32,508 bases of DNA from Bacteroidales bacterium (GTDB taxonomy: Bacteria; Bacteroidota; Bacteroidia; Bacteroidales; UBA12077), in the NCBI GenBank assembly GCA_022360575.1, contig JAKSCO010000254.1, forward strand, positions 1 to 32,508, read 5' to 3'. Made by a program: the position numbers and the translations under genes. Shown here one piece after another: positions 10,951-28,231 of the stretch. The notes under the pieces were generated by a model. That model worked only from the letters and a program-made list of their open reading frames with translations. It was not told the origin of the DNA and made no database searches. How positions within the stretch are numbered: position 1 is the stretch's first letter; each line of letters starts with the position of its first letter.

Positions 10951-10978
10951 AAAAAAAGGAAGACTTTTGTCTTCCTTT
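10951..10978 (-). terminator. Terminator of tRNA-Asn
   Basis: A perfect 10-bp stem, AAAGGAAGAC (10955-10964) with GTCTTCCTTT (10969-10978), has a TTTT loop. Read on the minus strand it follows the tRNA by a few bases and ends in a T tract. Confidence 0.88.
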
Positions 10979-10980
10979 CG

Positions 10981-11054
10981 CTCCCCAACTAGGACTTGAA
11001 CCTAGGACCCCCTGATTAACAGTCAGGTGCTCTAACCAACTGAGCTATTGAGGA
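10981..11054 (-). tRNA. tRNA-Asn (anticodon GTT)
   Basis: A 74-nt cloverleaf on the minus strand. The acceptor arms TCCTCAA and TTGGGGA pair with one G-T wobble. The D stem is GCTC/GAGC. The anticodon stem CCTGA/TCAGG encloses CTGTTAA, giving anticodon GTT. The T stem CTAGG/CCTAG encloses TTCAAGT. The discriminator is G and CCA is not encoded. Confidence 0.97.
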
Positions 11055-11087
11055 ATTTTCACTACACTCTTTCTGTGTTTTGCGATG

Positions 11088-11118
11088 CAAAAATAAGTCG
11101 TTTTTTTTTACAAAACAA
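11088..11118 (-). promoter_or_regulatory. Promoter of tRNA-Asn
   Basis: On the minus strand TATTTTTG (11095 to 11088) is a perfect -7 box, and TTG (11118 to 11116) lies 20 bp upstream. This is the same box sequence as at efp, tRNA-Gln and dtd. Confidence 0.65.
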
Positions 11119-11459
11119 CATCTCTTTCAAAAAAAACACTTTTTTTTAGATGCTCTTTGCTTATATCATTGACTATCTGAAATAAAAAACATAAAAAAAG
11201 ACACTAACTTTTCTTTACATAATCAGAAATTATGTCATATACCGTCTATAAAAGACATTTTTCGATAAATTATCGAAGCGTTCTAAACATAAACACTAGT
11301 CTAACTTAATAAACAAGGAATACTAAAATATTTTAATTGTGATACTATTCTCCGTTTTTTATCGTCCTGAGCATTAGTTAAAATCAGATACATAAAATCG
11401 AAAGCAAACCCATATTTATACAATTATTACTTTTCTTTTTTATTGAACTGTTTCCCTCT
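11119..11459. other. AT-rich gene-free stretch
   Basis: No gene recognised. The only structure noted is a 17-nt palindrome, TTCGATAA-A-TTATCGAA, at 11261-11277. Confidence 0.45.
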
Positions 11460-11943
11460 TATTTATTCGGAATATAAATCCCTGTTTTAAAAATATTCCA
11501 ACATTTTCGGTTTGTTTCATCTTTGCTATATTACAATTTGATTCTCGATATAAGTTATACACACTAAATACTGTTCATTTATTATCCGTTTTGCTTATTT
11601 ATAAAAGCATTTCGGTTAACTAAGCAAACAAACAGGTACCTTATCTATATTCTAGCTTAATAAACCCAAATTTTGACCTATCAAAACTATATTTTCTTCT
11701 TTTATACTAATCCATATCATTAACTTAATATTCCTGTTCTATAATTTATAGATATGATTCGGTTATTTACACAAGTGTTTCGGCAGTTAAACCAAAGTTT
11801 CCGATTCCGAACGTATATTTTTAGGTTTGGAACGTATAATTATACGTTGGTGAACCTATCCATTTCTATAATTTAATGATCTGTTTCTATAAGCAACCGA
11901 AATGGATCATTAATTAACCTAAACAGATAGGTAATTTACCTAT
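11460..11943. repeat. Degenerate tandem array, 21-bp period (array 1)
   Basis: Cutting 11587-11943 into seventeen consecutive 21-mers aligns them without gaps. By hand count, column 15 is A in 15 of 17 units and column 9 is T in 13 of 17; the two units missing A at column 15 are restored by a 1-base shift. Typical units contain TTTCGGTTA (11610, 11778) or TTTCTATAA (11863, 11884), and two neighbours end in GAACGTATA (11809, 11830). Weaker units seem to continue back to about 11460 with a small phase change. The array contains palindromes at 11831-11848 and 11927-11943. No frame is long or open, so it is not coding. Function unknown. Confidence 0.75.
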
Positions 11944-12067
11944 ATTTTAAGGATCTGGATCAATAGCATCCTAAATAACAAATCCTCCTAAATAAAGTCC
12001 AATATTCATATGCTGTTGGAAACTCATATTTTAAATACCCCCTTACGACAGAAAACACTTAAGTTTT

Positions 12068-12112
12068 AAATAGTCGAGCCTTAAAAAAGATTTTTTTAAG
12101 GCTCGACTATTT
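12068..12112. other. Long hairpin with perfect 21-bp stem
   Basis: Bases 12068-12088 and 12092-12112 are perfect reverse complements around a 3-nt centre. The core is TAGTCGAGCCTTAAAAAA. No T tract follows on either side, so it is not a standard terminator for TPR, which has its own hairpin nearby. It could be the 3' end of an untranslated RNA or a fold-back insertion. It lies about 125 bp past the end of array 1. Confidence 0.8.
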
Positions 12113-12131
12113 AACGAACGTACAGATACAA

Positions 12132-12157
12132 AAAGAGCAATCTCTCGATTGCTCTTT
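12132..12157 (-). terminator. Terminator of the TPR gene
   Basis: AAAGAGCAAT (12132-12141) and ATTGCTCTTT (12148-12157) form a perfect 10-bp stem with a 6-nt loop. It lies 32 bp beyond the TPR stop and is followed by a T run on the minus strand. Confidence 0.85.
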
Positions 12158-12188
12158 ATTCTATGTTATCTAAAGTAAAGTATAAATA

Positions 12189-13166
12189 CTATAAGCATTT
12201 AACCACATGTTTCATTTGATATTCAGCAGCTTCGGCATAATCGCCTTTTTTTGCTTTAGAAAAGGCATCGCAAGCTGATGCTTTGTCTCCTTTACCGTGG
12301 AAAGCTGTTCCTAATTCGTAATATATTTTAGCATCTTTAGTAGTTCCTTTTGGTTTAAACAACTCTAATGCTTTTTTTGCTGATTTTATTCCAGCATCCC
12401 ATTTTGATTGTTTGTTATAAATAACTGCTAATTGGTAATATAAGTCAGAATTGGCTGCTTTGTACTCCATTGAAGTATTGAAATGTTTTTCGGCAACGGC
12501 ATATTTTTCGGCTTTAACGGCAACAGCACCAGCTTTTAAATAAAATCCACTAGCTATTTTTTTAGCTGTAGCTTCTGATTTTTTGTCTTTTTTAGCAACA
12601 GCAGTAGTTATAGCCATATCGACAGCAGCTTTAAAGTTAGCTTCGTCTTTTTGCTCTTTATATACTTGAGCTTTTCGCACATAAGCCATTGGGTATTTTG
12701 GATTCAGTTCGATTGATTTATCGAAAGATGCTAAAGCTTCTTCGTATTTTTTGCTTTTTAATAAGCTAACACCTTTTGCATAATACAATTTAGGAACTGT
12801 AGCTTTTGCTTTTTTCGCATTTTTAGGATCATTATAGGTTTCGGCATATTCTTTTAATTTTCCGAAAGCGGCTATCGACTCGTCGTATTTTTTTTGTTTA
12901 TAAAGGCTTATTGCATATTTATATTGCATATTGGGAATTTGCCCTGATGCTGTAACAGCATTGTCATTATCTCCATCTTCTAACTCTTCATAAATCTCGA
13001 CACACTTTTTGAATGACTCTATTGCTCCTAAGTAATCTTTTGCTTTTGATTTTTCGGCGCCTGCCTTTAATGCATCAATTGCTTCTGACTCGGTTTGAGC
13101 ATTCACCATAACTGCACAACTTAACAAAATGATTACAGTTAAACTACTCATTAATTTAAATTTCAT
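12189..13166 (-). CDS. Exported tetratricopeptide-repeat (TPR) protein
   Basis: 325 residues. The signal peptide covers about residues 1-23 (a Lys-rich start, a hydrophobic core, and cleavage after VNAQ), so it acts in the periplasm or outer envelope. The mature part is almost all TPR-like helical pairs: about 37-70 (DYLGAIESFKKC), 88-120 (KYDESIAAFGKL), 130-165 (KYEEALASFDKS with N-P-K-Y-P), 205-265 and 278-310. It is very Lys/Ala rich. TPR proteins act as scaffolds; no enzymatic motif is present and the partner is unknown. It is a single gene with its own terminator, divergent from the polyprenyl synthase. It may help envelope assembly, but this is not shown by the sequence. Confidence 0.85.
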   Translation of the reverse strand: MKFKLMSSLTVIILLSCAVMVNAQTESEAIDALKAGAEKSKAKDYLGAIESFKKCVEIYEELEDGDNDNAVTASGQIPNMQYKYAISLYKQKKYDESIAAFGKLKEYAETYNDPKNAKKAKATVPKLYYAKGVSLLKSKKYEEALASFDKSIELNPKYPMAYVRKAQVYKEQKDEANFKAAVDMAITTAVAKKDKKSEATAKKIASGFYLKAGAVAVKAEKYAVAEKHFNTSMEYKAANSDLYYQLAVIYNKQSKWDAGIKSAKKALELFKPKGTTKDAKIYYELGTAFHGKGDKASACDAFSKAKKGDYAEAAEYQMKHVVKCL

Positions 13167-13483
13167 AACTTAAAACTTTTAGTTTAGGATTATATTTTCT
13201 TGATATTACTTTTCGGCCTTAAAAATATAAAATCGAGGCAAATAATAAAATTATTTGGTAATATTATTTATATCAATTTCATATCAAACGAAAGTGAAAT
13301 AATGATTTATGTAATATTTTTACTTTTATATGAAACCATAAAATTGTCTGATAAGAAACCATATAATGATGTTTTTATTAAAAATATTTTTAGAATTAAA
13401 TTTAAAAATGGTTGAAAATATTTAATTCGAATAGCATTTTTTACTATTTAAAATTTCATTTATCTTAGGTAGTGGAATTGTAT

Positions 13484-13491
13484 TATATTTG
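13484..13491 (+). promoter_or_regulatory. Probable -7 box for the polyprenyl synthase gene
   Basis: TATATTTG matches TAnnTTTG and lies 18 bp before the ATG at 13510, which implies a very short leader. No good -33 TTG was found at the expected distance, so this rests on the -7 box alone. Confidence 0.4.
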
Positions 13492-13509
13492 ACAAATTAA
13501 CAAATAAGT

Positions 13510-14487
13510 ATGTCGATAATAAACAAAATAAAATCACCTATAGGCGAGGAAATGTCGAAATTCGAACCATCTTTTAGAGCTTCGATGCAAACAAAAGTTC
13601 CTTTGCTTAATATAATCACTAATTACATTTTGCGCAGAAAAGGGAAGCAAATGCGTCCGATGTTTGTTTTTCTGACATCGAAAATGCTTAACAGTAAGGT
13701 TGAGGATGCCAGTTATACAGCTGCTTCGTTAATTGAACTTTTACACACTGCAACTTTAATTCATGATGATGTAGTTGACGAGGCTTATGAGCGCAGGGGG
13801 TTTTTCTCGATTAATGCTTTATGGAAATCGAAGATTAGTGTCTTGGTAGGCGATTATTTATTATCGAAAGGATTGTTGCTAGCAGTAGAAAAAAATGAAT
13901 ACGAACTACTCAAAATTGTATCGGTTGCAGTAAAAGAAATGAGCGAAGGGGAGTTGCTCCAAATTCAACAATCGCGAAAGCTAAAAATTACCGAGGAAAC
14001 TTACTACGAAATTATACGCAAGAAAACAGCGGCATTAATTGCAGCATGTATTGCATGTGGGGCAAAATCTATTGGAGCCGATGAAAAAACTGTAGATAGA
14101 ATGCATTTGCTTGGCGAATATGTAGGAATGGCTTTTCAGCTAAAAGATGATTTATTAGATTATCAGAATAATGGCAATATAGGAAAACCTTCGGGGAATG
14201 ATATAAAAGAAAAGAAATTAACACTACCGATTATTTATGTCCTCAAGAATGCCTCTCAATCGGATCAGAAAAGAATACTTACAATTGTCAAGAAACATAA
14301 TAAAAATAAGAAAAAGGTACATGAGGTAATTGATTTTGTTATTGCCAACGGAGGAATTGAATATACTACTGATAAAATGCATGAATATCAACAAAAAGCA
14401 TTGGATATTTTAGCTGAGATTCCTTCAAGTGATTCGAAAGAAGCTTTAATAGAACTCATTAATTATGTAGTTGTTCGCAAGAAGTAG
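13510..14487 (+). CDS. Trans-polyprenyl diphosphate synthase (long-chain isoprenyl diphosphate synthase)
   Basis: 325 residues, normal for the family. It condenses isopentenyl diphosphate onto an allylic primer to build a long all-trans chain, most likely the menaquinone side chain in this phylum. Visible motifs: GKQMRP (45-50, substrate phosphate binding), the first Asp-rich motif DDVVD (86-90) followed by ERRG, and the second motif GMAFQLKDDLLD with DDLLD at 213-217. Two bulky residues are not packed just before the first Asp-rich motif (LLHTATLIH), which fits a longer-chain product, but chain length cannot be set from sequence alone. It is cytosolic. It stands alone between a divergent TPR gene and the convergent deoC cluster. 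Confidence 0.93.
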   Translation: MSIINKIKSPIGEEMSKFEPSFRASMQTKVPLLNIITNYILRRKGKQMRPMFVFLTSKMLNSKVEDASYTAASLIELLHTATLIHDDVVDEAYERRGFFSINALWKSKISVLVGDYLLSKGLLLAVEKNEYELLKIVSVAVKEMSEGELLQIQQSRKLKITEETYYEIIRKKTAALIAACIACGAKSIGADEKTVDRMHLLGEYVGMAFQLKDDLLDYQNNGNIGKPSGNDIKEKKLTLPIIYVLKNASQSDQKRILTIVKKHNKNKKKVHEVIDFVIANGGIEYTTDKMHEYQQKALDILAEIPSSDSKEALIELINYVVVRKK

Positions 14488-14513
14488 TTGAAGTTAGGTA
14501 GCATCTCAGCTAC

Positions 14514-14638
14514 CTTTGTAAAATGAGTATCTATCTTTGTAAAACTTTGTCCCTACAATGTAAAATGACCTCCCCACTCTGCGAAAGTTCGTCTATCTTT
14601 GTAAAACGACCTCCCCTCTTTGTAAAAAATCCTATATA
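14514..14638. repeat. Tandem array of six 21-bp units (array 2)
   Basis: Units start at 14514, 14535, 14556, 14577, 14597 and 14618 (spacings 21, 21, 21, 20, 21). The conserved first half is CTTTGTAAAA, exact in four units. The second half is often GACCTCCCC (units at 14556 and 14597). It fills the gap between the convergent ends of the polyprenyl synthase gene and deoC, so it is not a promoter for either. Stops interrupt all frames over the array as a whole. Function unknown. Confidence 0.88.
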
Positions 14639-14644
14639 ATAAAA

Positions 14645-14674
14645 AAAGAAGCTGCCTTTTTGGACAGCCTCTTT
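14645..14674 (-). terminator. Terminator of the dtd-deoC cluster
   Basis: On the minus strand AAAGAGGCTGTCC pairs with GGCAGCTTCTTT (one bulge, one wobble) and is followed by a run of seven T. It lies 20 bp after the deoC stop. The GGCTGTCC core recurs at 25.57 kb. Confidence 0.8.
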
Positions 14675-14694
14675 AGCATAATTGTATATGTATA

Positions 14695-15564
14695 TTAAAA
14701 ATATTTTATTTGTTTTTGATAAATATCTGTTAGCAAGTTATTAGCTAATCTGCTAGCTCCGATTCTGAATAATTCAGAGTTTAACCATTCGTCGCCAAGG
14801 TTTTCTTTAACAATAGCAAAATAAGCCATAGCGTCTTCTTTGGTTGATATCCCACCTGCAGGTTTTATTCCTATTTTTTTCCCTGTTTTTTCGTGGAATG
14901 CTTTAATTGCTTTAGTCATAACATAAATAGCATCGGTTGTTGCAGCAGGGTTTTGTTTTCCTGTTGAAGTTTTTATGAAATCGGCACCTGCTTCCATCGC
15001 AAGAATACTAGCGTCCCAAATTTGTTGATATGATTGTAGTGCTCCTGATTCGAGAATTACTTTGAGATGATTTTCGCCAATAGCTTGTTTTATTTCTTTA
15101 ATCTCTTTGAAACAATATTCGTAATCGCCTTGGAAAAACTTACCCACCGAAAGAACAATATCGATTTCGGTAGCCCCAGCTTCGATAGCTTGTTTACATT
15201 CTTCGATTTTTACATTTAAGAATGTTTGCGACGAAGGGAATCCTGCTCCTACCGATGCTAATCCTAGTTTCGAAACCGTTAGATTCTCTCTTACGCACGC
15301 TACCATACTTGGATAAACACAAATAGCGGCAACTGAAGGCATCTCGGGATAATGGTTACTAAAGTCGTTAACCTTATCGACCATTGATTTGATTTTTTCG
15401 GTATTATCTTCGGTGTTTAAGCTCGTTAAATCAATTAAGCTAAAAGCTTTTTTAAGGTTTTCAGTAACTGCATATTGATGGCTATTATTGCTTATAATAG
15501 CAACTTTTTGTTGGATATTTTCTTTTAAGAAATCAGCATTGTATTTATTAAAAATCTCTTTCAT
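14695..15564 (-). CDS. deoC: Deoxyribose-phosphate aldolase
   Basis: 289 residues, with an N-terminal extension of roughly 40 residues relative to the E. coli enzyme (259). It cleaves 2-deoxyribose 5-phosphate to glyceraldehyde 3-phosphate and acetaldehyde, the last step of deoxynucleoside catabolism. Class I aldolase residues are in place: Asp135 (EIDIV), Lys168 (LKVILESG), Schiff-base Lys198 in DFIKTSTGK, and Lys234 in GIKPAGGIS. The TIM-barrel start is near IDLTSL (44-49) and a Cys lies in AICVYPSMV. It is cytosolic. It is last in the dtd / MazG-like / deoC run, 17 bp after the MazG-like stop, and has a terminator behind it. Co-transcription is very likely. Confidence 0.95.
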   Translation of the reverse strand: MKEIFNKYNADFLKENIQQKVAIISNNSHQYAVTENLKKAFSLIDLTSLNTEDNTEKIKSMVDKVNDFSNHYPEMPSVAAICVYPSMVACVRENLTVSKLGLASVGAGFPSSQTFLNVKIEECKQAIEAGATEIDIVLSVGKFFQGDYEYCFKEIKEIKQAIGENHLKVILESGALQSYQQIWDASILAMEAGADFIKTSTGKQNPAATTDAIYVMTKAIKAFHEKTGKKIGIKPAGGISTKEDAMAYFAIVKENLGDEWLNSELFRIGASRLANNLLTDIYQKQIKYF

Positions 15565-15581
15565 ATCTATTTGAGTTTTAT

Positions 15582-15908
15582 TTATTTCAACTTTATATTT
15601 TCGTGATGTCTGTTAGCATCTCGTTTTGTTTTTTTATCAAGATTTTTTTGAAGAGCTTTAGTTAAATCAATTCCTGTTTGATTGGCAATACATATTAGAA
15701 CAAAAAGAACATCAGCTATTTCATCTTCAAGATTCTTATGTTCATCGGTTTCTTTACACGATTGTTCGCCATATTTTCGAGCAATAACTCTGGCTAACTC
15801 TCCGACCTCTTCGGTTAAAAGAGCCATATTTGTTAACTCATTGAAGTAACGGACACCATAAGTTTTTATCCAATTATCGATTTTTTCCTGCGCTTCTTTT
15901 ATTAGCAT
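15582..15908 (-). CDS. MazG-like nucleotide pyrophosphohydrolase
   Basis: 108 residues, the size of single-domain MazG-like proteins. These all-alpha enzymes use magnesium to split (d)NTPs to monophosphates and pyrophosphate, often as house-cleaning of non-canonical nucleotides. The metal-binding signature is visible: EEVGE (33-37) in helix one and DEIADV (62-67, with E63 and D66) in helix two. No second MazG domain is present. It lies between dtd (80 bp upstream) and deoC (17 bp downstream), which suggests a small operon for damage control and nucleotide salvage. The substrate is not predictable. Confidence 0.88.
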   Translation of the reverse strand: MLIKEAQEKIDNWIKTYGVRYFNELTNMALLTEEVGELARVIARKYGEQSCKETDEHKNLEDEIADVLFVLICIANQTGIDLTKALQKNLDKKTKRDANRHHENIKLK

Positions 15909-15988
15909 ATTTGTAATTATTTTAAAAATAAAGCGCGTAAAGATATAACAATTATTAATATAAGATGTTTAATCTCAATTTTATAAGT

Positions 15989-16441
15989 CTATGCTTTATT
16001 TTTTGTATCTATTATAATGGTTACCGGTCCATCGTTTTCGAGATTAACTTTCATGTGTGCTCCGAATTTTCCTGTTTTAACCTCTTTGCCCAAATCAGCA
16101 CTAAGTTGTTTTACAAATTGTTCGTATAAAGGGATTGATATTTCGGGTTTTGCCGCTTGTTGATACGATGGACGATTCCCTTTTTTTGTTTTTGCATGTA
16201 AAGTAAACTGACTTATAGCTAATATTTCGCCATTAATATCTTTTACAGACAGGTTCATAACTCCATCTGAATCATTGAATATTCTGAGTTGAACTATTTT
16301 TTTTGTCAACCAATTAATATCTTCATTATTGTCTGATTCTTCGATTCCTACTAGTATTAATAATCCTATTTCGATGGATGATTTTATTTTATCTTCAACA
16401 CTAACCGATGCTTTATTAACTCTTTGAATAACAACTTTCAT
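15989..16441 (-). CDS. dtd: D-aminoacyl-tRNA deacylase
   Basis: 150 residues, the full family length. It hydrolyses D-amino acids (and glycine mischarged on tRNA-Ala) from tRNA, protecting translation. Family signatures are all present: MKVVIQRV at the start, SQFTLHA (77-83), KKGNRPSYQQAA (87-97), GKFGAHMKV (125-132) and NDGPVT (136-141), whose Gly138-Pro139 is the cross-subunit Gly-cisPro motif of the dimer active site. It is cytosolic. It is the first gene of the cluster, with a promoter just upstream and divergent from the endonuclease gene. Confidence 0.97.
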   Translation of the reverse strand: MKVVIQRVNKASVSVEDKIKSSIEIGLLILVGIEESDNNEDINWLTKKIVQLRIFNDSDGVMNLSVKDINGEILAISQFTLHAKTKKGNRPSYQQAAKPEISIPLYEQFVKQLSADLGKEVKTGKFGAHMKVNLENDGPVTIIIDTKNKA

Positions 16442-16481
16442 GAAAAATATTTATTTTTTATAATTATGTTTACTGACATGT

Positions 16482-16489
16482 CAAAAATA
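16482..16489 (-). promoter_or_regulatory. -7 box of the dtd cluster promoter
   Basis: On the minus strand TATTTTTG (16489 to 16482), identical to the efp and tRNA boxes, lies about 40 bp before the dtd ATG. No clear -33 TTG at 19-21 bp was found. Confidence 0.5.
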
Positions 16490-16570
16490 ATTAATTAATT
16501 GGAGTATTCTTTCTGTAAAATTTGTAACATTGCGCCCATTTTATTACATAACAACCTAATTATTTAAACA

Positions 16571-18793
16571 ATGAAACGAATTTTAAGCGCATTAATAGCG
16601 ATATTTTTGGTATCGTCGCTATTTGCATCTATTCCTAACGGGTATTATAGCGATGCTTCAGGAAAGACAGGCTACGAGTTAAAAACAGCTCTTTATCACA
16701 TTATCAAAGGACATAGAGCTAGTTCGTACAAACAACTATGGAAACATATGGAAAAGACAGACAAAAAACCTAACGGAAAAGTATGGGATGTTTACTCTGA
16801 TGTACCAGGAGGCAATCCTCCATATGAATTTAATTTCGGAACAAATAAGTGTGGTAATTACTCGGGAGAAGGAAGCTGTTACAACAGAGAACACTCATTT
16901 CCTAAAAGTTGGTTTGATGACGCAAAACCTATGTACTCGGATTTATTTCATTTATATCCTACCGATGGAAAAGTAAATGGTATGCGAAGCAATTATCCCT
17001 TTGGTGAAGTAAGCGAATCTAAATGGATCTCGCTAAATGGGTGTAAACTTGGTTCGTGTAGTGTTTCTGGTTATAGCGGGACTGTTTTTGAACCTATAGA
17101 TGAATACAAAGGAGATTTTGCACGAACATATTTTTATATGGCTACTCGTTATCAAAATATTATTTCGAGATGGGAACATAATTCAAAACATTCGGACGCT
17201 GTATTAGATGGAACTTCTGATCAGGTTTACGAAGAATGGTATCTTAATATGATTTTAGATTGGCACAATCAAGATCCGGTAAGTCAGAAAGAAATTGATC
17301 GAAACAATGCTATTTATAAAGTTCAAAATAACAGAAACCCTTTTATCGATCATCCCGAATATGTAGCAATGATTTGGGGTGGCGAACCAATACCTAATCC
17401 TGTTATTAGTAATATCTCGCATAATCCAACGACTCCGCGCAGCACAGATAATGTAACTATACAAGCAACAATTACTGACGATAATAGCATTGAATCGGCC
17501 GAGTTGATTTGGGGGACAAATCAAACAGCTATAAACAACACCATAACAATGACTCGCTCGGGAGTAAAATACTCTGCCGTTATTGACAAACAAGCCGATG
17601 AAACAGTTGTTTATTTTAAGATAATAGCTACTGATAACGAATCGAACATTACTCAATCACCAGTAAAATCTTATCAGGTAAGTAACCAAAGAATTATTTC
17701 GAATCCTATTTTCGAAGAAAATTTCGGAACAATAACCCCCAAAAAGCCCATTGCAATTAATAACTGGATAACTTATATTGAAGCAGGAACAAAAACATGG
17801 TTTGGGAAAGAGTACAAAGGTCAGAAATATGCTTCAATGTCGGCATACAAATCAACAGGCATGGAAGAATCAAACATTGCTTGGTTAATTACTCCATCAA
17901 TTGATTTAAGTAACATTTCGAAAGCTACATTAACTTTTAAGAGTAAAGATGGGTATAATAACGGAACCCATGTCGAATTGTTTATATCGAGCAATTATAC
18001 CAATAAGGTAAGTACAGCTGATTGGACCAAGCTAGAGGCTACTTTTGCAACAGAAGCTCCATCTGATGGTTATGCTACGAGTTTTACTAAGTCGGGAGAT
18101 ATTGATTTGAGTGCACACTGTGGAAATCGTATTCGCCTAGCTTATAAATATACCGGTGGAGCCAATGTGGGAATTGGAACAACAATGCAAATCGATGATA
18201 TTGTAGTAACCGGGGAATCATCGTCAACAACTAATATTGATCCTGTTATTACAGATATTACTATTGATCCGAGCCAACCAACAACTAAGAGTAATGTAAA
18301 TATTTCGGCTCAAATTACAGACGATAAAGAAGTGCGTTCGGCTAAATTAATTTGGGGAACCAGAAGTGGAGAATTGCAAAATACTGTAATAATGTCGAAA
18401 TCAACAAATACTTATTCAGGTATAATCCCAGCTCAAAGCAAAGCAACAACAGTATATTTTAGAATAAAAGCTACCGATAACGAATCGACCGAATCGATAA
18501 GTAGCGAAATAAATTACAATATTTCGAAAGCTAATGGTATTGATTTAGCATTGTCTAAGAACATAAATGTTTATCCAAATCCAACAAAGGGAAACATAAA
18601 AATTACTCTTAGCAATAACTTACAACTAAAATCAGTAGAAGTTTATAATTTAACAGGAGAAAAGGTTCAGGCAAAAACAAATATAAATTCTGACGAATGT
18701 ATGCTCAATTTAGAGACTTTACATAAAGGGATATACTTTGTTAAGATAAATACACCAGAATCATCTTTTACTAAAAAAATTATCTTCGAATAA
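16571..18793 (+). CDS. Secreted endonuclease I with two Ig-like domains, an adhesin-like domain and a T9SS tail
   Basis: 740 residues. A signal peptide covers about 1-20 (cleavage near LFAS). The EndA/endonuclease I domain covers about 21-270: NREHSFPKSW (105-114, His108), DLFHLYPTDGKVN (124-136, His127), then NPFIDHPEYV at its end. Next come an Ig/Fn3-like domain (about 277-370), a jellyroll 'choice-of-anchor'/cleaved-adhesin-like domain (about 375-555), a second Ig-like domain (about 560-650) similar in sequence to the first (both contain TDD and LIWGT), and a type-A T9SS sorting domain (about 658-740) starting NVYPNPTKG and ending KKIIFE. It should be exported by T9SS and degrade extracellular DNA/RNA; the added domains suggest binding to a surface or polymer. 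A compact terminator follows. Confidence 0.9.
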   Translation: MKRILSALIAIFLVSSLFASIPNGYYSDASGKTGYELKTALYHIIKGHRASSYKQLWKHMEKTDKKPNGKVWDVYSDVPGGNPPYEFNFGTNKCGNYSGEGSCYNREHSFPKSWFDDAKPMYSDLFHLYPTDGKVNGMRSNYPFGEVSESKWISLNGCKLGSCSVSGYSGTVFEPIDEYKGDFARTYFYMATRYQNIISRWEHNSKHSDAVLDGTSDQVYEEWYLNMILDWHNQDPVSQKEIDRNNAIYKVQNNRNPFIDHPEYVAMIWGGEPIPNPVISNISHNPTTPRSTDNVTIQATITDDNSIESAELIWGTNQTAINNTITMTRSGVKYSAVIDKQADETVVYFKIIATDNESNITQSPVKSYQVSNQRIISNPIFEENFGTITPKKPIAINNWITYIEAGTKTWFGKEYKGQKYASMSAYKSTGMEESNIAWLITPSIDLSNISKATLTFKSKDGYNNGTHVELFISSNYTNKVSTADWTKLEATFATEAPSDGYATSFTKSGDIDLSAHCGNRIRLAYKYTGGANVGIGTTMQIDDIVVTGESSSTTNIDPVITDITIDPSQPTTKSNVNISAQITDDKEVRSAKLIWGTRSGELQNTVIMSKSTNTYSGIIPAQSKATTVYFRIKATDNESTESISSEINYNISKANGIDLALSKNINVYPNPTKGNIKITLSNNLQLKSVEVYNLTGEKVQAKTNINSDECMLNLETLHKGIYFVKINTPESSFTKKIIFE

Positions 18794-18811
18794 TAATCAC
18801 TACATATATAA

Positions 18812-18845
18812 AAGCCCGGCTATCATGGCCGGGCTTCATTTTTTA
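18812..18845 (+). terminator. Terminator of the endonuclease gene
   Basis: AAGCCCGGC (18812-18820) and GCCGGGCTT (18828-18836) form a perfect GC-rich 9-bp stem with loop TATCATG, followed by a T run on the plus strand. The M16 gene converges from the other side and may share it. Confidence 0.88.
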
Positions 18846-18858
18846 TTTGTTATTGAAT

Positions 18859-20934: not shown

Positions 20935-21053
20935 TGTAAAAATTTTATGACTTACTTAAAATACACTCTATCGTTTTCCTCATAAGTATTTTAAATACGT
21001 CTGTTTTTCGTTTTTAATAATAAATTAGCGAGTTTAACTAAATTAGTTATAAT

Positions 21054-22382: not shown

Positions 22383-22433
22383 AATTAAAATTTAATTGAT
22401 TTCTAATTGATTTTTCTAAATTCTTTTTTTGTT

Positions 22434-22637
22434 TTATGGTGTATAATTAAGAATATCTCCGGGTTTACATTTCAGCTCTCTACAAATAGCATCTAAAGTA
22501 GAAAAACGAATTGCTCTGGCTTTCCCGCTTTTTAATATCGAAAGATTTGCAATTGTAATATCTACACGTTCGGCAAGTTCTGTTAAAGACATTCGACGTT
22601 TAGCTAAAATCGTATCTAAATTTGTCACAATAGGCAT
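22434..22637 (-). CDS. Small Xre/YozG-type helix-turn-helix regulator
   Basis: 67 residues from the ATG at 22637. An earlier in-frame ATG (22733) would overlap the DUF2975 gene by 82 bp and add a segment unlike the family, so I reject it. Helix-turn-helix core: LTELAERVDITIANLSILK (18-36), then KARAIRFSTLDAICREL, and GDILNY at the end. This is the compact Xre type found beside DUF2975 proteins, as in the Bacillus YozG/YoaS pair. It follows the DUF2975 stop by 14 bp, so the two are one transcript. It probably represses its own promoter; its target list and signal are unknown. Confidence 0.9.
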   Translation of the reverse strand: MPIVTNLDTILAKRRMSLTELAERVDITIANLSILKSGKARAIRFSTLDAICRELKCKPGDILNYTP

Positions 22638-22651
22638 AACCTTCGTATTTA

Positions 22652-23299
22652 TTATATAGTTAATTCTTGATCTTTCTTCATTTCTAAGCCAATACGATAT
22701 ATCTCTGCAATGATTACAACAACTAAGCTCCAAAACAACTTAGTAAAAGAATCAAAATTTAGTTTCAAATCGAATGACTTTCCTAAAAGGATAACTTTAT
22801 CGAACCAAGCATATTCGATAATAACAGGATACATTATCTCCATAACAGCCAACAAAAAGATAGCAATTGCTATATATCTTATCCTCCATACATTTTTGTA
22901 ATCGAATACGTTTTGTTTTTTTAGGGATTTACGGATAGACCTAAATATTTTCCACAATAGAAAAATAATGTAGTATGCTATAAGTAAAAAAAAGATTAAT
23001 GCTAAAAAATTTAATACTCCTGCAATTCCATATTCTTCATTTATATTAAATCCAATTGATGCATAAGTAATAAAAATATTACTTTGAGCTCCACTCTTTA
23101 ATTCTAAAGTAGCATTTTCTGCTATTTTCAAAGGGATATCAGTAATTGGTATAAAACGTTCAAAATCAGGATTTGATAAAGAAATAATAAAAATTAACAA
23201 ATAAGCCATAATCATAACTCCAACAAAACCTAACAATGTACTTAGTATAACATATATTAGATTTATAATATTCTTGTTCCTAGGTTTTTGAGGTTCCAT
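22652..23299 (-). CDS. DUF2975 membrane protein
   Basis: 215 residues with four predicted membrane segments: about 12-40, 91-118, 145-168 and 187-205. The loop after segment two is basic (RSIRKSLKKQNVFDYKNV), which suggests the cytosolic side. A conserved-looking tail KKDQELTI ends the protein, as in DUF2975 family members. The region between segments one and two (about 43-90) would face the periplasm. No enzymatic motif is seen. Its gene sits directly before an Xre regulator, the usual arrangement for this family, so a membrane sensor that controls the regulator is plausible but not demonstrated here. Confidence 0.85.
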   Translation of the reverse strand: MEPQKPRNKNIINLIYVILSTLLGFVGVMIMAYLLIFIISLSNPDFERFIPITDIPLKIAENATLELKSGAQSNIFITYASIGFNINEEYGIAGVLNFLALIFFLLIAYYIIFLLWKIFRSIRKSLKKQNVFDYKNVWRIRYIAIAIFLLAVMEIMYPVIIEYAWFDKVILLGKSFDLKLNFDSFTKLFWSLVVVIIAEIYRIGLEMKKDQELTI

Positions 23300-23512
23300 A
23301 AAATATCATTTTAACTTTAGCAAAAAAAGATAATTTTATTGAAAAACAATAAAAAAAAATGTTAAAAAAGTTAAATTACCCATATCATCCTCTATTTAAT
23401 TTCTTCGGGAAAAATATAAAAACCAATTGAACTTAACTCGACTGTTATTTGTTGTAAAGAATAAATACGGGAAGGTTATTTACAAATAGCTGATTATTAA
23501 AATAAAGGGCAT

Positions 23513-23538
23513 TATTTTTGCATATAAATCTATATTTG
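23513..23538 (+). promoter_or_regulatory. Candidate -7 boxes for the universal stress protein gene
   Basis: Two TAnnTTTG matches lie upstream of the gene: TATTTTTG (23513-23520) and TATATTTG (23531-23538). Neither has a clear TTG at the ideal -33 distance. The second would give a leader of about 50 nt. Which is used cannot be decided here. Confidence 0.4.
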
Positions 23539-23594
23539 TGTAACTTTTCAAACTTAAAAAAGTAAAACGTTGTCGTGTTCAAATTACGAAAAAC

Positions 23595-24428
23595 ATGGAA
23601 AAAGATACATTATTAGTACCTTGGGATTTTACCGAAGTAGCCGAATCGGCATTACAACATGCTTTAAAATTTGCTAAAAGGCTTAACAACAAAATTACGC
23701 TAATACACGTAGTTAAATCTTCTAAAAAGGGAGAAGAAGCTCTTGTTGAACTTAATAAAGATATTGAAGAACTAAACAAGAAATATAATGTTGAATTAGA
23801 ACCGCTCGTTCTAGAAGGAAGTTTATTTCATGTAATCTCTGATTATGCTTCAGAAAATAATGTTAGCATGGTTATTATGGGGACACATGGGATAAAGGGA
23901 ATGCAAAAATTTACAGGAAGTTATGCTTTAAAGGTTATTGTAGGATCAAAAATACCTTTCTTAGTAGTTCAAGATGATCCGGCAAAAAAAGATGAATTTA
24001 AAGATGTTGTTTTTCCTCTCGATTATCGTTCTGAAGCAAAACAAAAATTACAATGGGCTTTATTTTTAGTTAAGTATTTCGATGTTAAAATTAACATTAT
24101 TATACCTACACTAAAAGATCGTTCATTAAATAATAAATTAATGGCAAATGTTCATTTTGCTGAAAAAATTCTAGGAAAATATAATTGTAGCTACGAGCTT
24201 CATAAGGTAGAAGAAAGTAACATTGCCGAAAGATCAATTGAATTTGCTCAGAAAATTAATGCTGACGTAATGTTAATAATGACAACCAAGGGAATTGGAA
24301 TAACGGATTATGTGCTAGGCACTCAAGAGCAATACATTATTGCAAATACAGCTAAAATTCCAGTTATGGTAGTAAATCCACGAACTGATTTAAGCCGATA
24401 TGGAAGTTTTAGCGCTACAGGCGGATGA
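23595..24428 (+). CDS. Tandem-domain universal stress protein
   Basis: 277 residues with two UspA domains: about 1-135 and 140-277. Domain one opens with LLVPWDFTEVAESAL and ends with the nucleotide-binding-type loop MGTHGIKGMQKFTGS, followed by VIVGSKIPFLVV. Domain two has the equivalent TTKGIGITDYVLGTQ and ANTAKIPVMVVNP but lacks the second glycine pattern, so only domain one is likely to bind ATP. It is cytosolic. Such proteins support survival under starvation, oxidative or energy stress through unclear mechanisms. It is single, with its own terminator. Confidence 0.92.
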   Translation: MEKDTLLVPWDFTEVAESALQHALKFAKRLNNKITLIHVVKSSKKGEEALVELNKDIEELNKKYNVELEPLVLEGSLFHVISDYASENNVSMVIMGTHGIKGMQKFTGSYALKVIVGSKIPFLVVQDDPAKKDEFKDVVFPLDYRSEAKQKLQWALFLVKYFDVKINIIIPTLKDRSLNNKLMANVHFAEKILGKYNCSYELHKVEESNIAERSIEFAQKINADVMLIMTTKGIGITDYVLGTQEQYIIANTAKIPVMVVNPRTDLSRYGSFSATGG

Positions 24429-24451
24429 AAGTAAAACCATATAAGTATATT

Positions 24452-24484
24452 AAAAAACAAGAGTTTATAACTCTTGTTTTTTTT
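24452..24484 (+). terminator. Terminator of the universal stress protein gene
   Basis: AAAAAACAAGAGTT (24452-24465) and AACTCTTGTTTTTT (24469-24482) pair perfectly around a 3-nt loop and run into T. The A tract on the left could make it work on both strands. Confidence 0.88.
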
Positions 24485-24572
24485 ATTGATTTAATTGTAA
24501 TGTTTCCATAAATTGGTAAAAAAACATACATTTACGACTCATTTTTAAAGCGTAAATTAAATAATTATTGTA

Positions 24573-25511
24573 ATGACATTTATTACTAAAGAAAAATTTT
24601 TATCAAAAGCATGGTTTCTCAATTATCTTTTTATAACTATTGGGTCCTTCATTCTTGCAGCTGGATTTGTTTATTTTATTGATCCCCACAAAATTGTTCC
24701 TGGAGGAGTATATGGGATAGGTATTGTTGTAAAAAACTTAACTGCCGGAATGATGGGAGATGGCTTAAAGATTCCTTTTATTGCTGAACCTATTTTTAAA
24801 GAAGGATTGGGTATCGGATTTGTAGGTTTAATGCTTAACATTCCTTTAACTATTATTGGAATTAAAGCCTTAGGTCCAAGATTTGGAGTAAAAACCGTTG
24901 TAGGATTTGTTTTATCTTCTATTTTCATTGATTTTCTTGATGAGAATTTTAGCGGAGCATTAGTTGATGATGTTCTTTTATCGTGTATTTTTGGTGGAGT
25001 ATTAATTGGTTTTGGTTTAGGTTTAATATTTAAATCGAAAGCAACATCTGGAGGATCTGATATTATTGCTATGATTATAGCAAAATACACCAAAATGTCA
25101 TTGGGTATACTAATGATTGTTGTTGATTCCTCAATTGTATTGTTAGGATTGCTTGTATTCAAAGACTGGAAAATCCCGCTTTATTCTTGGATTGTAATTT
25201 ATGTTACAGGAAAAGTAATTGACGCAACACTACAAGGAGTTAGCTACGACAAAGCTTTGTTTATTATTTCGGATAAATACGAAGAAATTCGATCTAAAAT
25301 AATAAACGATTTAGGTAGAGGCGGAACTCTGCTAAACGGAGTAGGTATGTTTAAAGGGGTAGAGAAAAAAATCATATTTACCAATGTAAACAGAAGAGAA
25401 CAATCTATTTTACGAGATTATATTAAGGAAATTGATCCTAATGCATTTATGACTGTAATTGATGCAAACGAAGTTCTAGGAAATGGGTTTAAATCATTAT
25501 ATGAAGACTAA
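24573..25511 (+). CDS. YitT-family membrane protein (DUF161/DUF2179)
   Basis: 312 residues. Five or six membrane segments lie in the first 215 residues (about 13-35, 82-103, 108-125, 133-155, 175-198, 200-215). Family motifs are visible: VPGGVYGIG near 42-50, GLGLIFKSKATSGGSDI (about 148-164), where the GG-x-D segment is typical, and a soluble DUF2179 tail (about 225-312) with LGRGGTLLNGVG and REQSILRDYI. The C-terminal part resembles small ligand-binding ACT-like folds in the cytosol. The family's role is not settled; transport or efflux is often suggested. It stands alone with its own terminator. Confidence 0.9.
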   Translation: MTFITKEKFLSKAWFLNYLFITIGSFILAAGFVYFIDPHKIVPGGVYGIGIVVKNLTAGMMGDGLKIPFIAEPIFKEGLGIGFVGLMLNIPLTIIGIKALGPRFGVKTVVGFVLSSIFIDFLDENFSGALVDDVLLSCIFGGVLIGFGLGLIFKSKATSGGSDIIAMIIAKYTKMSLGILMIVVDSSIVLLGLLVFKDWKIPLYSWIVIYVTGKVIDATLQGVSYDKALFIISDKYEEIRSKIINDLGRGGTLLNGVGMFKGVEKKIIFTNVNRREQSILRDYIKEIDPNAFMTVIDANEVLGNGFKSLYED

Positions 25512-25516
25512 TAAAT

Positions 25517-25551
25517 AAAAAGTACCCAAATAATTATTGGATACTTTTTTA
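25517..25551 (+). terminator. Terminator of the YitT-family gene
   Basis: AAAAAGTACCCAA pairs with TTGGATACTTTTTT with one mismatch around a short AT loop, ending in T. It starts within a few bases of the YitT stop. Confidence 0.75.
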
Positions 25552-25562
25552 TCTAAATATAT

Positions 25563-25599
25563 AAGAGGCTGTCCTTTACTTTTTGGACAGTCTCTTTTT
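25563..25599. terminator. GGCTGTCC-type hairpin between convergent genes
   Basis: AAGAGGCTGTCC (25563-25574) and GGACAGTCTCTT (25585-25596) form a 12-bp stem with one wobble. A T run follows on the plus strand; on the minus strand it lies directly after the M1 peptidase stop. It probably ends transcription in both directions. It shares its core with 14645-14674. Confidence 0.78.
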
Positions 25600-25601
25600 C
25601 T

Positions 25602-27515
25602 TTAATATTTAACTAATTTTTTCGAATACGTAATATCTACAGACATTACTTTAATGAAATAAATTCCGTTCTCTAAGTTCGTAATATCCATATTAATCTC
25701 TGTGCCTTTTGTTTCTTGTCGGTTAATTATTTGTCCACCTAAGCTTATTACCTCAATCTTTTTTGTTTCTTGATCTAGATTCGGATTAAATTTTATTGTA
25801 ATAAAATCCTTTGCAGGATTAGGTGAAAATTTAAATAAGTCTTTCTTGCTATTTATCGGGGGGATAGAATCTATAACTCCTATTTTATTCAATATCCAAT
25901 TATCAGGATCAACAATAATATCAGTAACCTTTTCTCGAATCGGGATTTTAAATGTCTCTACGTTTTTCGATTGAAACAATCGAACTGTAGTATCTCCATC
26001 GGCATATAATATTTTATAATCGACATGCAATTGAAACAATGGAGTTGCTTGAGATGAAGTTGTTTGCTCTACTATAAACAATAACGAATCAGAATTTTGA
26101 GTGTATTGTATACTAAATATCGGAAATCCTTTTCCGTAGTACCATTGATCAAAGAAAGGATCTAAATCTGTTCCTGTTTGAGATTCCATTACATTTTTAA
26201 AATCATCACCAGTAGCTACGCTATTGGCAAAAAGCCTCAAATACTCTCGAATTGACGAAAAAAACAATTCGTCATCATTTATTTCATGACGCAAAGTATG
26301 AAGTATAAATGCTCCTTTCTTATACGATAAATTATAATGAAATATTCGAAATTCATTTTTCGATTCACTAAAGGGAATATAAATCGATTTATCTGTAACC
26401 GCCATAGCTAAATCATGAGCTTCGGTAAGCCATTTATTTACTCTTGGATTTGATAAATTTTCGAGAGCAATGTATTCTGAATATGAAGCAAAACCTTCGT
26501 TTATCCATATATCTTGCCAAGATGCGCAAGTAACATAATCGCCAAACCACATATGCCCTAATTCGTGAGAAATAATATCGTGATAGAAATATCCTATTGT
26601 TGTCATTGTTTGGTGTTCCATCCCCCCTCCTAAGGCCGTTAAACAATGTCCATATTTCTCATTAGCAAAAGGGTAAAGCCCAAATTTTTCACTAAAAAAC
26701 TCGAGGAAAATTATTGTACTATCAATAAATGCTCTGTTCTCAGCAAGACATTCCGGAGTATTAAAAATAAAGTTCTGTATAAGAACAGAGTCAACTCCTT
26801 GTGGCTTTGCATAAATCGAATAATCTTGATATTCGGCAACAGCAAACGATAACATATAGTAATTCATTGGATGAAAAGTTTTCCATTCGAATCGTTTTTT
26901 GTTATTATCAAGGTTTACAACATTTGTTAACAAACCATTTGATCCTACCATACAGTCGTTATCACAAGTAAAAAACATATATGCCGAATCTATTTTATCA
27001 GACAGTACCTGTTTGCAGGGCCACCACTCGTAAGCATGAAAAGATTCCGATAAGGTCCAAGTTGAATTCTTTCCCCATTCTTCAGAAGAATACGACATTA
27101 CTCCTCTTCCTTGTTTTGTAGGTGTTCCTTTATAGTGAATTTGAGCTGTAAACTTTGTATTCGGAGGCAATGGATTAGTAAAAATATATTCTATAATGTG
27201 GTTATCATGATTAAAGTTTACTCTTGAATCATTAATCAGCAAAGAATCAACTTCCATGGTTTCATTTAATTCAAAAACAAGAGTATCAAGAGTCTGTTTC
27301 GAAGTTGATTTTATTGTTGCATTTCCTGAGAGGTATGTTGTATCGTCCGAAACACTTAAATCTAATTTTACAAAATAAATATCATATTTATCAAAATTAG
27401 AATTCTTATGCAATCTTACATTATAACATCGTTTAATAAAATCCTTGGTATTAACTTGTTGCGAAAATAAATTTACTGTAAGTAAAAACAACAAAATAAA
27501 TAATAGGTTTTTCAT
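25602..27515 (-). CDS. Secreted M1-family aminopeptidase with T9SS tail
   Basis: 637 residues. A signal peptide covers about 1-19 (cleavage near LFSQ). M1 N-terminal beta domain, about 40-250. Catalytic domain: GGGMEHQT (296-303) in the position of the GAMEN exopeptidase motif, zinc site HELGH (317-321), and the third ligand Glu340 in WINEGFASY, 19 residues on as expected. The YKKGAFILH and DFKNVMES segments continue the catalytic region. The bulky helical C-terminal domain of classical M1 enzymes is missing. Instead there is a short beta segment and a type-A T9SS sorting domain (about 555-637, FSPNPAKDF to KKLVKY). It should be exported to trim N-terminal residues from peptides outside the cell. 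It is downstream of array 3 and has no clear promoter that I could identify. Confidence 0.92.
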   Translation of the reverse strand: MKNLLFILLFLLTVNLFSQQVNTKDFIKRCYNVRLHKNSNFDKYDIYFVKLDLSVSDDTTYLSGNATIKSTSKQTLDTLVFELNETMEVDSLLINDSRVNFNHDNHIIEYIFTNPLPPNTKFTAQIHYKGTPTKQGRGVMSYSSEEWGKNSTWTLSESFHAYEWWPCKQVLSDKIDSAYMFFTCDNDCMVGSNGLLTNVVNLDNNKKRFEWKTFHPMNYYMLSFAVAEYQDYSIYAKPQGVDSVLIQNFIFNTPECLAENRAFIDSTIIFLEFFSEKFGLYPFANEKYGHCLTALGGGMEHQTMTTIGYFYHDIISHELGHMWFGDYVTCASWQDIWINEGFASYSEYIALENLSNPRVNKWLTEAHDLAMAVTDKSIYIPFSESKNEFRIFHYNLSYKKGAFILHTLRHEINDDELFFSSIREYLRLFANSVATGDDFKNVMESQTGTDLDPFFDQWYYGKGFPIFSIQYTQNSDSLLFIVEQTTSSQATPLFQLHVDYKILYADGDTTVRLFQSKNVETFKIPIREKVTDIIVDPDNWILNKIGVIDSIPPINSKKDLFKFSPNPAKDFITIKFNPNLDQETKKIEVISLGGQIINRQETKGTEINMDITNLENGIYFIKVMSVDITYSKKLVKY

Positions 27516-27698
27516 AATATTTAGGTTCTTATATCATATTATCAACAAAGAGACAATACAATTGTGGTTAGTAGGAATCTTATTCATGGGATGAATGTAA
27601 CGAATCAGGATTTAAAAAACAAACACAATAAATAATTTCAACAGCAATGGCTTAAAATCTTATTTAAAAAGGTCTCCCTATTATTCATAATCTTTAAA
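27516..27698. other. Upstream region of the M1 peptidase gene
   Basis: 183 bp of AT-rich sequence that should hold the peptidase promoter. No clean TAnnTTTG box was found on the minus strand. A unit resembling array 3 may start at about 27657. Confidence 0.4.
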
Positions 27699-28231
27699 AT
27701 ATCATCAATGGGGTCAACACCCCCAAGCATGATATTCTGGTCTTTATTAATTGTGTCGATAATATCGGTTATTATCTCCTAAATAAATACTATATATTGT
27801 CTTACATCGAACATCCCTATTTTTATATCCATCGAGATTTAAATGACATCAATTAATATCTTTTTTTGATCGATAACCTCGAACAAAACATCAAAAACCA
27901 AGCTTTTTACATCCTTCGAGTCAAAAAGAATATCAACCTTGGAGTAATTTATCTCATTAATGACCTCTGAGACATAAACAATAGGGGAATTTTTTTTAAC
28001 CAAAAGACCCCTCCAACATAAACATCGATCTAAATTTGGTCAATCGAGATGTATTTTACCCCAAGCTTGATGTACTTTAGGTATTTTTTCTTTCAAAATT
28101 TTGATATAAATCGATGTTTTTGAGACCTTAATTGATGTTATCGTCGAGTTAATAGATGTTTTTCTGATCATCTTTGATGTAAATAATAGCATTTACGATC
28201 TCTGTAACATATTTAATAAACACCTAGACAT
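27699..28231. repeat. Degenerate tandem array, 21-bp period, with an internal orientation change (array 3)
   Basis: From 27699 to 27992, fourteen gap-free 21-mers align. By hand count T is at column 4 in 12 of 14 and C at column 5 in 11 of 14, giving starts such as ACATC or ATATC (27804, 27825, 27846, 27888, 27909, 27930). After a 44-bp double unit and 28022, the motif appears on the other strand as GATGT: 28048, 28069, then 28113, 28134, 28155, 28176 and a GATCT at 28197, again every 21 bp (28069 to 28113 is 44 bp). The second half of units often contains CTCGA or GACCTC. It lies between endonuclease gene 2 and the M1 peptidase gene. No start codon opens a credible ORF. Function unknown. Confidence 0.82.

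Follow-up and report, generated by a model that had tools for sequence, protein, structure and literature searches.

Three intergenic arrays with a 21-bp period are found in the window, the whole stretch of 32,508 nucleotides of a Bacteroidales genome analysed here. They very probably are noncoding, lineage-specific satellites of the class of bacterial repeats with constant repeat size and variable sequence. This assignment is based on a ladder of unit sizes, the lack of a coding signal and, among the families compared, of a common sequence, the finding of further such arrays across the genome, and the lack of array 2 behind the corresponding gene in the relatives inspected. The genome is a rich new example of this already described, unexplained class. 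That the unit size is constrained through protein binding is our tentative explanation, with a chance somewhat short of even.

Periodicity, layout and relatedness of the window arrays

The arrays and their flanking features are listed in Table 1. The 21-bp periodicity reported in the initial annotation is confirmed for all three arrays, where the lag-21 autocorrelation reaches z 5.7-6.7, above 400 dinucleotide shuffles per region. When lags 5-60 are compared, the lag-21 value of each array is unmatched at any lag in its 400 shuffles. In arrays 1 and 2 no lag in this range exceeds lag 21, which in array 3 taken whole is second (z 5.7) to lag 42 (z 6.4). A sliding scan without preset coordinates gives z above 4.5 at all three sites, with top lags of 21, 62 and 42. 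At score 30, Tandem Repeats Finder, which had been suggested as a check, did not report any of the arrays with a period of 21.

Table 1. Arrays and adjacent features in the window
Feature	Position	Strand	Description
tRNA-Asn, array 1 flank	10980-11054	-	
Array 1	11600-11960		about 17 diverged 21-bp units, TTtCGGTTa-like
TPR gene, array 1 flank	12189-13166	-	
Polyprenyl synthetase gene, left of array 2	13510-14487	+	PF00348, E 2.9e-66
Array 2	14512-14634		about six family A units, CTTTGTAAAAxGACCTCCCC; lag-21 z 5.67
DeoC-like aldolase gene, right of array 2, convergent	14695-15564	-	PF01791, E 5.4e-23
Array 3, left half	27795-27983 (about)		21-bp units with ACATC
Array 3, right half	28026-28222 (about)		21-bp units with GATGT

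The periodicity of array 1 (z 6.65 at lag 21 for 11460-11940) lies mainly between about 11,600 and about 11,960, where the sliding profile is strongest, and the identity to the consensus is 58% (11640-11960). Over the full gap around this array, 10,815-12,188, lag 21 ranks first without reaching significance when all lags are considered (P 0.055); over 9,645-12,188, which includes the array, lag 26 exceeds lag 21. The left part of array 3 (27700-28010) has z 6.2 at lag 42 and z 3.0 at lag 21 (P 0.09 over lags), and the right part (28010-28231) has z 5.5 at lag 21. The two halves of this array are related in inverted orientation (P 0.001 and 0.008).

The neighbours of the window arrays code for EF-P, a TPR protein, polyprenyl synthetase, DeoC, an M1 peptidase and endonuclease I. 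The iterons offered as a parallel in the initial annotation are unlikely, because no initiator gene is present among these neighbours and there are many arrays per genome.

The word AATGACCTC occurs exactly at 14564 in array 2 and at 27959 in array 3, as had been noticed; it was chosen after looking, and of 100 shuffled versions of the window, 2 have at least two matches. The single family to which this word seemed to point is not supported. Under a period-preserving null the window arrays are mutually unrelated, the inverted halves of array 3 apart, and a common family for them is rejected. In 220 comparisons of 11 segments with this column-permutation null, the only P values below 0.02 come from pairs of one family and from the two halves of array 3 compared with each other. 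The null recovers known family pairs, while a plain-shuffle version of the test is uninformative since any two periodic arrays score high. No word is clearly common to the array families. The best shared 4-mer is present in 9 of 15 families (a value also reached in 2 of 30 null runs), the best 5-mer in 5 of 15 (5 in 3 of 30 null runs), and the best 6-mers, GTAAAA and AAAATG, in 4 of 15 each, where the null maximum is 3.

Relatives of array 2, which belongs to family A, are located at C268, C79, C82, C23 and C308 of the same genome, and a further one at C103 was found by protein search. At C268, Tandem Repeats Finder gives 3.0 copies of a 104-bp unit with 93% matches, and this unit is read as 21+21+21+21+20. 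The 104-base unit has one match among 38 other genomes, a weak one. In the genome contig collection it is found on one contig, belonging to that same genome, and it has no match among viral contigs. The array sequences are species-specific in family A, the sole family examined.

A genome-wide ladder of unit sizes

A 668-kb sample of the same genome contains 24 noncoding tandemly periodic clusters, while its shuffled control gave one cluster in ten replicates together. The top lags of 21 of the 24 fall on a ladder of about 21 bp (21, 23, 41, 42, 44, 83, 87); the three others, at L035 (twice) and L041, are 7-bp based and are counted as misses. The sample was not picked for arrays and excludes the window and nine stretches on contigs from the family A searches. 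Part of it was drawn from contigs listed for MITE ends; C362 and C183 came from a family B list, the listed matches lying outside the stretches used; among the G002 stretches, C348 was picked for its match. Two weak arrays (L108:5692 and L206:6847) and an edge array (L205:15226) were left out of further analysis. The mean autocorrelation of 16 ladder families, our own selection with the 7-bp family omitted, peaks at 21-23, 41-42 and 63, and no helical sub-period of 10/11 bp is seen in this average.

The two-turn size of about 21 bp, combined with differing sequences, is a property of the genome and not of the window only. The initial annotation would have been refuted by a lag-21 signal no higher than that of shuffled intergenic DNA or by the lack of such arrays elsewhere. 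Neither result was found: the shuffled signal is exceeded, and arrays are present elsewhere in the genome. In congeners such arrays look rare; in G003, a further species of this genus, a 42-bp array is seen whose sequence is different (judged by eye).

Units of 41/42 bp without a detectable internal 21-bp repeat are found at L107, L122, L206b, L209 and L210b, five arrays that perhaps represent three families (grouped by eye). Thus it is length, not sequence, that the arrays have in common. Diverged arrays hold register with few indels. The 21 array segments compared (one from G002, the other 20 from this genome) have 34 indel events versus 1225 mismatches, while 18 full copies of the local MITE have 13 versus 133. 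It is important to note that the arrays were found and trimmed by phase, which accounts for part of their low indel ratio. Five 41/42-bp arrays (L122, L199, L206b, L209 and L210b) have a MITE-like 10 indels versus 83 mismatches; the corresponding counts are 1 versus 36 for L107 and 0 versus 50 for L104. Near-identical arrays coexist with decayed ones, at identities from 97% to 57%.

The arrays are noncoding. The length of 21 bp corresponds to seven codons, and the arrays could in principle be genes or gene relics for coiled-coil (heptad) proteins. Open heptad frames at C308, array 3 and L098 were persuasive early: the family A member at C308 has an open frame of 87 codons with IDGLSAEWGALSAK repeats, and the right half of array 3 is open over 51 codons with a seven-residue repeat. 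This origin is nevertheless extremely improbable. The column variability has no mod-3 pattern (codon-phase test, Fisher P 0.97, 15 segments), and units of 22, 23, 41, 83 and 104 bp, not multiples of three, break the reading frame; after the codon-phase test and with the 22-, 23- and 41-bp units in view, a coding role of the open frames is rejected. In addition, the frames with the lowest N/S ratio often carry stops, and C308 is open on both strands. Its frame matches the Pfam model Molybdopterin_N just above the cut-off (26.8 versus 26 bits) over an 11-residue stretch, which is taken for a repeat artefact. The other Pfam matches are to general coiled-coil models below the cut-off, and PDB matches have E 0.005 or worse.

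Possible origins of the constant length

Each array very probably arises by local tandem duplication, after which its sequence drifts while the unit remains close to 21 or 42 bp in length. These lengths correspond to two and four turns of B-DNA. The length may be held because each repeat must show the same helix face to its reader, probably a candidate DNA-binding protein of nucleoid type spanning two turns, which would recognise shape or local features and not one motif. Binding of the arrays by an architectural protein, as the initial annotation proposed, is possible. Against this reading, units of 22, 23 and 41 bp drift from exact helical phase.

Two general features of the arrays were considered and rejected. 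In array 3, compared with its column-permuted versions, the curvature has z 4.2 and 4.8 in an A-tract wedge model and 1.9 and 3.4 with roll values; over 17 segments the mean z is 1.06 (s.e. 0.48) and 0.60 (0.31), respectively. Intrinsic curvature is strong in array 3, family D and L210b (wedge model) and is not general. Dyad symmetry, as expected of symmetric operators, has a mean z of 1.3 in a set of 29 segments that includes overlapping ones and members of one family. This is a weak tendency and not a general one, with stronger single cases in family D, L097, L088 and array 1.

Most of what is seen here would also be expected from a neutral duplication mechanism that favours a certain length. 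Drifting minisatellites, made without selection by a duplication process (slippage, template switching or the work of a recombinase) whose own copy length is about 21 or 42 bp, are a close rival with a considerable probability, although one below even. The single match of the family A unit among 38 other genomes agrees with such an origin, as does the coexistence of near-identical and decayed arrays. Of 19 further genomes of the genus, 14 have a match to the polyprenyl synthetase gene left of array 2; array 2 was not seen behind this gene in the flanks of 13 relatives inspected by eye (one flank of 177 bases), and the convergent DeoC neighbour is kept in five of these flanks, also by eye. The arrays also sit where insertions harm least. 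Convergent gaps hold 6 of 19 placed arrays and make up 14 of 159 other gaps (P 0.01), while the figures for divergent gaps are 2 of 19 and 50 of 159 (P 0.065); this count covers the 19 of 30 arrays that lie between two called genes, the other 11 being left unplaced by the script. Against a neutral origin, no bacterial process is known to us whose quantum is 21 bp, and the register is held in diverged arrays, which however were selected by phase. The unit length may be held either by a DNA-binding protein or by the duplication mechanism itself.

Transcribed repeat RNAs, acting as small RNAs, sponges or stem-loops at transcript ends, are an improbable account. The 52-nt satellites of Bacillus coagulans are described as transcribed (PMC8625621), and BrickBuilt segments are described as driving reporter expression in E. 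coli (PMC4596501). The enrichment of arrays in convergent gaps agrees with this reading, and array 3 folds better than shuffled sequences (z -6.8 in a comparison with 20 shuffles; -4.2 and -4.6 when its bounds were set differently). However, the mean fold z of 26 array segments, -2.3 and -2.2 on the two strands, is not clearly beyond the -1.4 (s.d. 2.2) of 40 other intergenic stretches. Rfam matched two tRNAs and no other family in the window, and RNA structure would leave fixed unit lengths of 21 and 42 unexplained. The structured RNA suggested earlier is not favoured as a general account. It is more improbable still that the arrays are cargo of MITE-like transposons in the fashion of BrickBuilt. 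A 25-bp MITE end does have 76 matches in the genome when as many as two mismatches are allowed (none for the reversed control), the full local element being about 163 bp, and with looser patterns an end lies within 120 bp of 9 of 30 arrays. Yet 230 of 1311 random noncoding placements (18%) lie as close, the ends are oriented both towards and away from the arrays (by eye), and the three window arrays have no such end nearby. One exact 12-base end pattern of BrickBuilt type had no match in 225 loci, and no leader/tail container with terminal inverted repeats was found around the arrays.

Comparison with known repeats

The 2020 survey of Subirana and Messeguer reportedly covered 1241 genomes. These authors describe constant-size, variable-sequence repeats of 20-23 nt with several families per genome, mostly noncoding and species-specific, with a few units of 40-41 nt; they point to two helix turns and propose a protein that forms polymers along DNA (PMC8161180). 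The present arrays agree with this description in unit size (20-23 or 40-41) for 21 of 24 clusters, and in having several families in one genome that are not protein-coding. They differ in their Bacteroidales host. Moreover, the described repeats carry short characteristic words (in Bacillus), while here 4- and 5-mers are at or within the null and 6-mers slightly above it; their 40-41-nt repeats are related, according to a figure legend, to the 20-21-nt ones, while some 41/42-nt arrays here have no detectable internal 21-nt repeat. Arrays 1 and 3, being decayed, might not pass the SATFIND criteria of at least four repeats and 60% equal length.

The statement that no Bacteroidota element of such form had been described is not supported. 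Porphyromonas gingivalis has intergenic arrays of 23-nt (BrickBuilt), 41-nt (PgRS/MITE464) and 22-nt units, as described in PMC4596501. Set beside ours by this description, they are likewise intergenic tandem arrays of Bacteroidota, with 23- and 41-nt units unrelated to each other. BrickBuilt, however, is described there within a MITE-like element that has a leader, a tail and IS5-like ends and is complete in some copies, and no such container is found here. The 52-nt Bacillus satellites also have constant length and variable sequence and are transcribed, but their length is different and the account cited reports them only in Firmicutes. BldC of Streptomyces polymerises head to tail on direct repeats and could serve, by analogy only, as a model for an array reader; its repeats, as described in PMC5859096, are shorter, have few copies and function in promoters. 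A literature search found no paper on 21-bp intergenic direct repeats in Bacteroidales.

A more specific proposal, which we consider unlikely, is that a nucleoid protein of Bacteroidota, new to science, polymerises on DNA with a two-turn footprint, reads shape instead of sequence and sets the unit length. If this is true, unrelated 21- and 42-bp satellites would be selected in parallel, would act near gene ends and would be a bacterial counterpart of nucleosome-length satellites. Bacterial satellites of fixed length and free sequence have been reported without explanation. This genome gives a dense set of them, with 21 ladder clusters in the 668-kb sample and varied families and ages. Together with the 41/42-bp units without detectable 21-bp ancestry and the apparently array-poor congeners, this set makes it possible to ask whether the unit length is chosen by selection, through a two-turn protein footprint, or by mutation.

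Periodicity in the window and in the genome

The 21-bp period that the initial annotation had read at all three arrays is borne out by autocorrelation against dinucleotide shuffles. The lag-21 z values of arrays 1, 2 and 3 are 6.65, 5.67 and 5.68, respectively, and no lag between 5 and 60 matched them in any of the 400 shuffles per region. In five other, shorter intergenic regions the values are 0.2, 0.3, -0.15, 0.6 and -2.2. Array 1 is sensitive to the bounds chosen: over the whole gap (10,815-12,188) lag 21 ranks first (P 0.055 over lags); when the bounds are 9,645-12,188, lag 26 exceeds it. A sliding scan run without the earlier coordinates picks out all three positions. The units have only 57-72% identity to their own consensus, and Tandem Repeats Finder, proposed as a check, gave period 21 for none of the three.

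The genome (3.6 Mb, 362 contigs) was surveyed in 71 stretches not picked for arrays, comprising 668 kb with 81.6 kb noncoding. Windows with z > 3.5 were found at lag 42 in 6.3%, lag 21 in 4.7%, lag 84 in 3.7%, lag 41 in 3.3% and lag 63 in 2.3%, against 0.05% at the median lag. The signal is present genome-wide: the noncoding segments that reach 189 bp, 156 in number and 66.5 kb in total, contained 24 clusters above z 4.5, and ten shuffled replicates together contained one. The top lags near 21 bp and its multiples are 42 (6 clusters), 21 (4), 41 (4), 87 (3), 23 (2), 44 (1) and 83 (1); three further clusters have a 7-bp base (56, 28 and 14). Extrapolation from 21 per 668 kb gives roughly a hundred such clusters in the whole genome. 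Four other species of the genus yielded four clusters (lags 12, 66, 42 and 15) in 322 kb, 34 kb of it noncoding, and the genus-mate G002 three in 118 kb (lags 21, 101 and 70), the lag-21 contig having been chosen for its hit. The present genome therefore looks unusually rich in arrays, the congener samples being small.

Coordinates of the arrays and of neighbouring or related features
Feature	Location	Description
Window	C14:1-32508	
Repeat protein	window 4-2045	8.3 copies of a 246-bp (82-codon) repeat; the 1923-aa product has SprB repeats, an HYR domain and a type IX secretion signal; predicted gliding or adhesion type
Array 1	window ~11,600-11,960	true extent
Inverted repeat	window 12066-12114	perfect, 23 bp, 3-bp loop; terminator-like hairpin downstream of TPR gene
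Family A units	window 14532-14606; also C268, C79, C82, C23	include TATCTTTG
7-bp-based intergenic repeat of another kind	L035:400-546; L035:1828-2016; L041:4243-4536	AAGTATC AAGACAT AAGACAC; top lags 14, 28, 56
Similar-looking 7-bp-based repeat	G002, L141:5923-6069	
Arrays of 41-/42-bp units	L205:810; L209:550; L210:17005	one end near similar sequence like GACACTGTCTTAAATTTTGTGTAAAG
MITE	L147:1095 onward	~163 bp; ~25-bp terminal inverted repeats AATACCAAAAGAACATCAAAATGAG ... CTCATCTTGAAATTCATTTGGTATT

Common length and different sequences

Relatedness of 11 segments was assessed both ways and on both strands against a null in which unit columns were permuted with period and composition retained. 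P values below 0.02 were confined to pairs within known families and to the two inverted halves of array 3; therefore arrays 1, 2 and 3 are not detectably related by sequence. The reading of different sequences at a common period is thus upheld, and the suggestion that arrays 2 and 3 belong to one family is not.

Length is what the arrays have in common. The consensus is internally repeated at 20-22 bp in contigs C268 and C308, in loci L104, L088, L200, L205, L210a, L194 and L100 and in L125 of G002; that of L202 repeats at 41, then 21 bp. No such internal repeat is detectable in L107 (42 bp), L122 (41 bp), L206b, L209 and L210b (42 bp each), of which L206b, L209 and L210b may form a single family; L199 has a 41-bp unit repeated internally at 7. 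The mean autocorrelation of 16 families from the 21-bp size series, selected by us, peaks at 21-23, 41-42 and 63, with no peak at 10 or 11. The similar sequence near one end of three 41-/42-bp arrays resembles an insertion-sequence end, perhaps of IS256 type.

Array 2 is a member of family A, other copies of which lie on C268, C79, C82, C23, C308 and C103. On C268 a 104-bp unit, which we read as sub-units of 21, 21, 21, 21 and 20, is present in three copies. Outside this genome, 38 relatives were searched for the unit, and one of them, G002, matched it over 28 bases. A degenerate family A pattern was found in genome_contigs on one contig, from G002, and in viral_contigs not at all, records closest to the present genome possibly being left out there. 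By eye, no counterpart of array 2 was seen behind the orthologous synthetase gene in the 13 relatives whose flank was inspected (one flank being short), five of which keep the convergent DeoC neighbour. The family A word TATCTTTG fits the Bacteroidota promoter -7 consensus, TAnnTTTG. The word TATCTTTGTAAAA is present at 16 places in the genome, 14 of them within arrays by our reading, and its reversed control at one. Such a promoter-like word could be due either to chance or to the arrays being stray promoters.

Surroundings and nature of the arrays

The window arrays have unremarkable neighbours: EF-P, a TPR protein, polyprenyl synthetase, DeoC, and an M1 peptidase and an endonuclease I that each carry a type IX secretion tail, together with two tRNAs. 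Nineteen arrays were located with a called gene on either side. Six of them occupy convergent gaps, against 14 of 159 for other gaps (P 0.01), and two occupy divergent gaps, against 50 of 159 (P 0.065).

Arrays of 21-bp units can contain long open frames (87 codons on C308), and a low N/S ratio is seen in individual frames, several of which have stops; the coding reading was rejected, codon phase being absent (Fisher P 0.97). Array 3 folds as one long imperfect hairpin (z -6.8) because its halves are inverted, and folding is likewise good in L199, L107, L204, L097, L210b and family D; the alternative of structured RNA is not favoured for the arrays overall, whose mean z of -2.3 and -2.2 is not clearly in excess of other intergenic DNA (-1.4). 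Dyad symmetry is a weak tendency. Ends of the local MITE, which match 76 places in the genome, lie near 9 of 30 arrays against 18% expected. Of 29 two-ended copies of this MITE examined, 11 are shorter forms of 61-102 bp.

Relative to the consensus of the array concerned, the 21 segments carry 34 indel events and 1225 mismatches, while the neutral yardstick of 18 full MITE copies from this genome has 13 and 133. Five segments (L122, L199, L206b, L209 and L210b) have a MITE-like ratio (10 to 83), and the contrast is carried by the remainder (24 to 1142). This low ratio is only moderate evidence for a kept register, because phase was the basis on which the arrays were selected and trimmed.

Relation to known repeats

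The initial annotation knew of no Bacteroidota element of this form; such elements are described, since Klein et al. report for P. gingivalis intergenic arrays with 23-nt units and cite others of 41 and 22 nt (PMC4596501). A class of tandem repeats of constant size and variable sequence has been described by Subirana and Messeguer, with units of 20-21 nt in Bacillus, of 20-23 nt across many groups of bacteria and of 52 nt in Firmicutes, generally noncoding, species-specific and with several families per genome (PMC8161180). There the length is equated with two helix turns, perhaps needed by a protein polymerising on DNA (PMC8161180). The window arrays show each defining feature of this class for which a clear test could be made, and they differ from BrickBuilt, the 23-nt P. 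gingivalis arrays, in lacking its MITE-container feature. For a short word common to the families, 4-mers and 5-mers were at or within the null and 6-mers slightly above it.

The unit length suggests a relation to two-turn DNA geometry. It could be held through selection by a protein or through a mutational quantum, the two standing side by side. The arrays are real and genome-wide; they make up a length-quantised set of noncoding satellites, a strong further example of a known, unexplained class.
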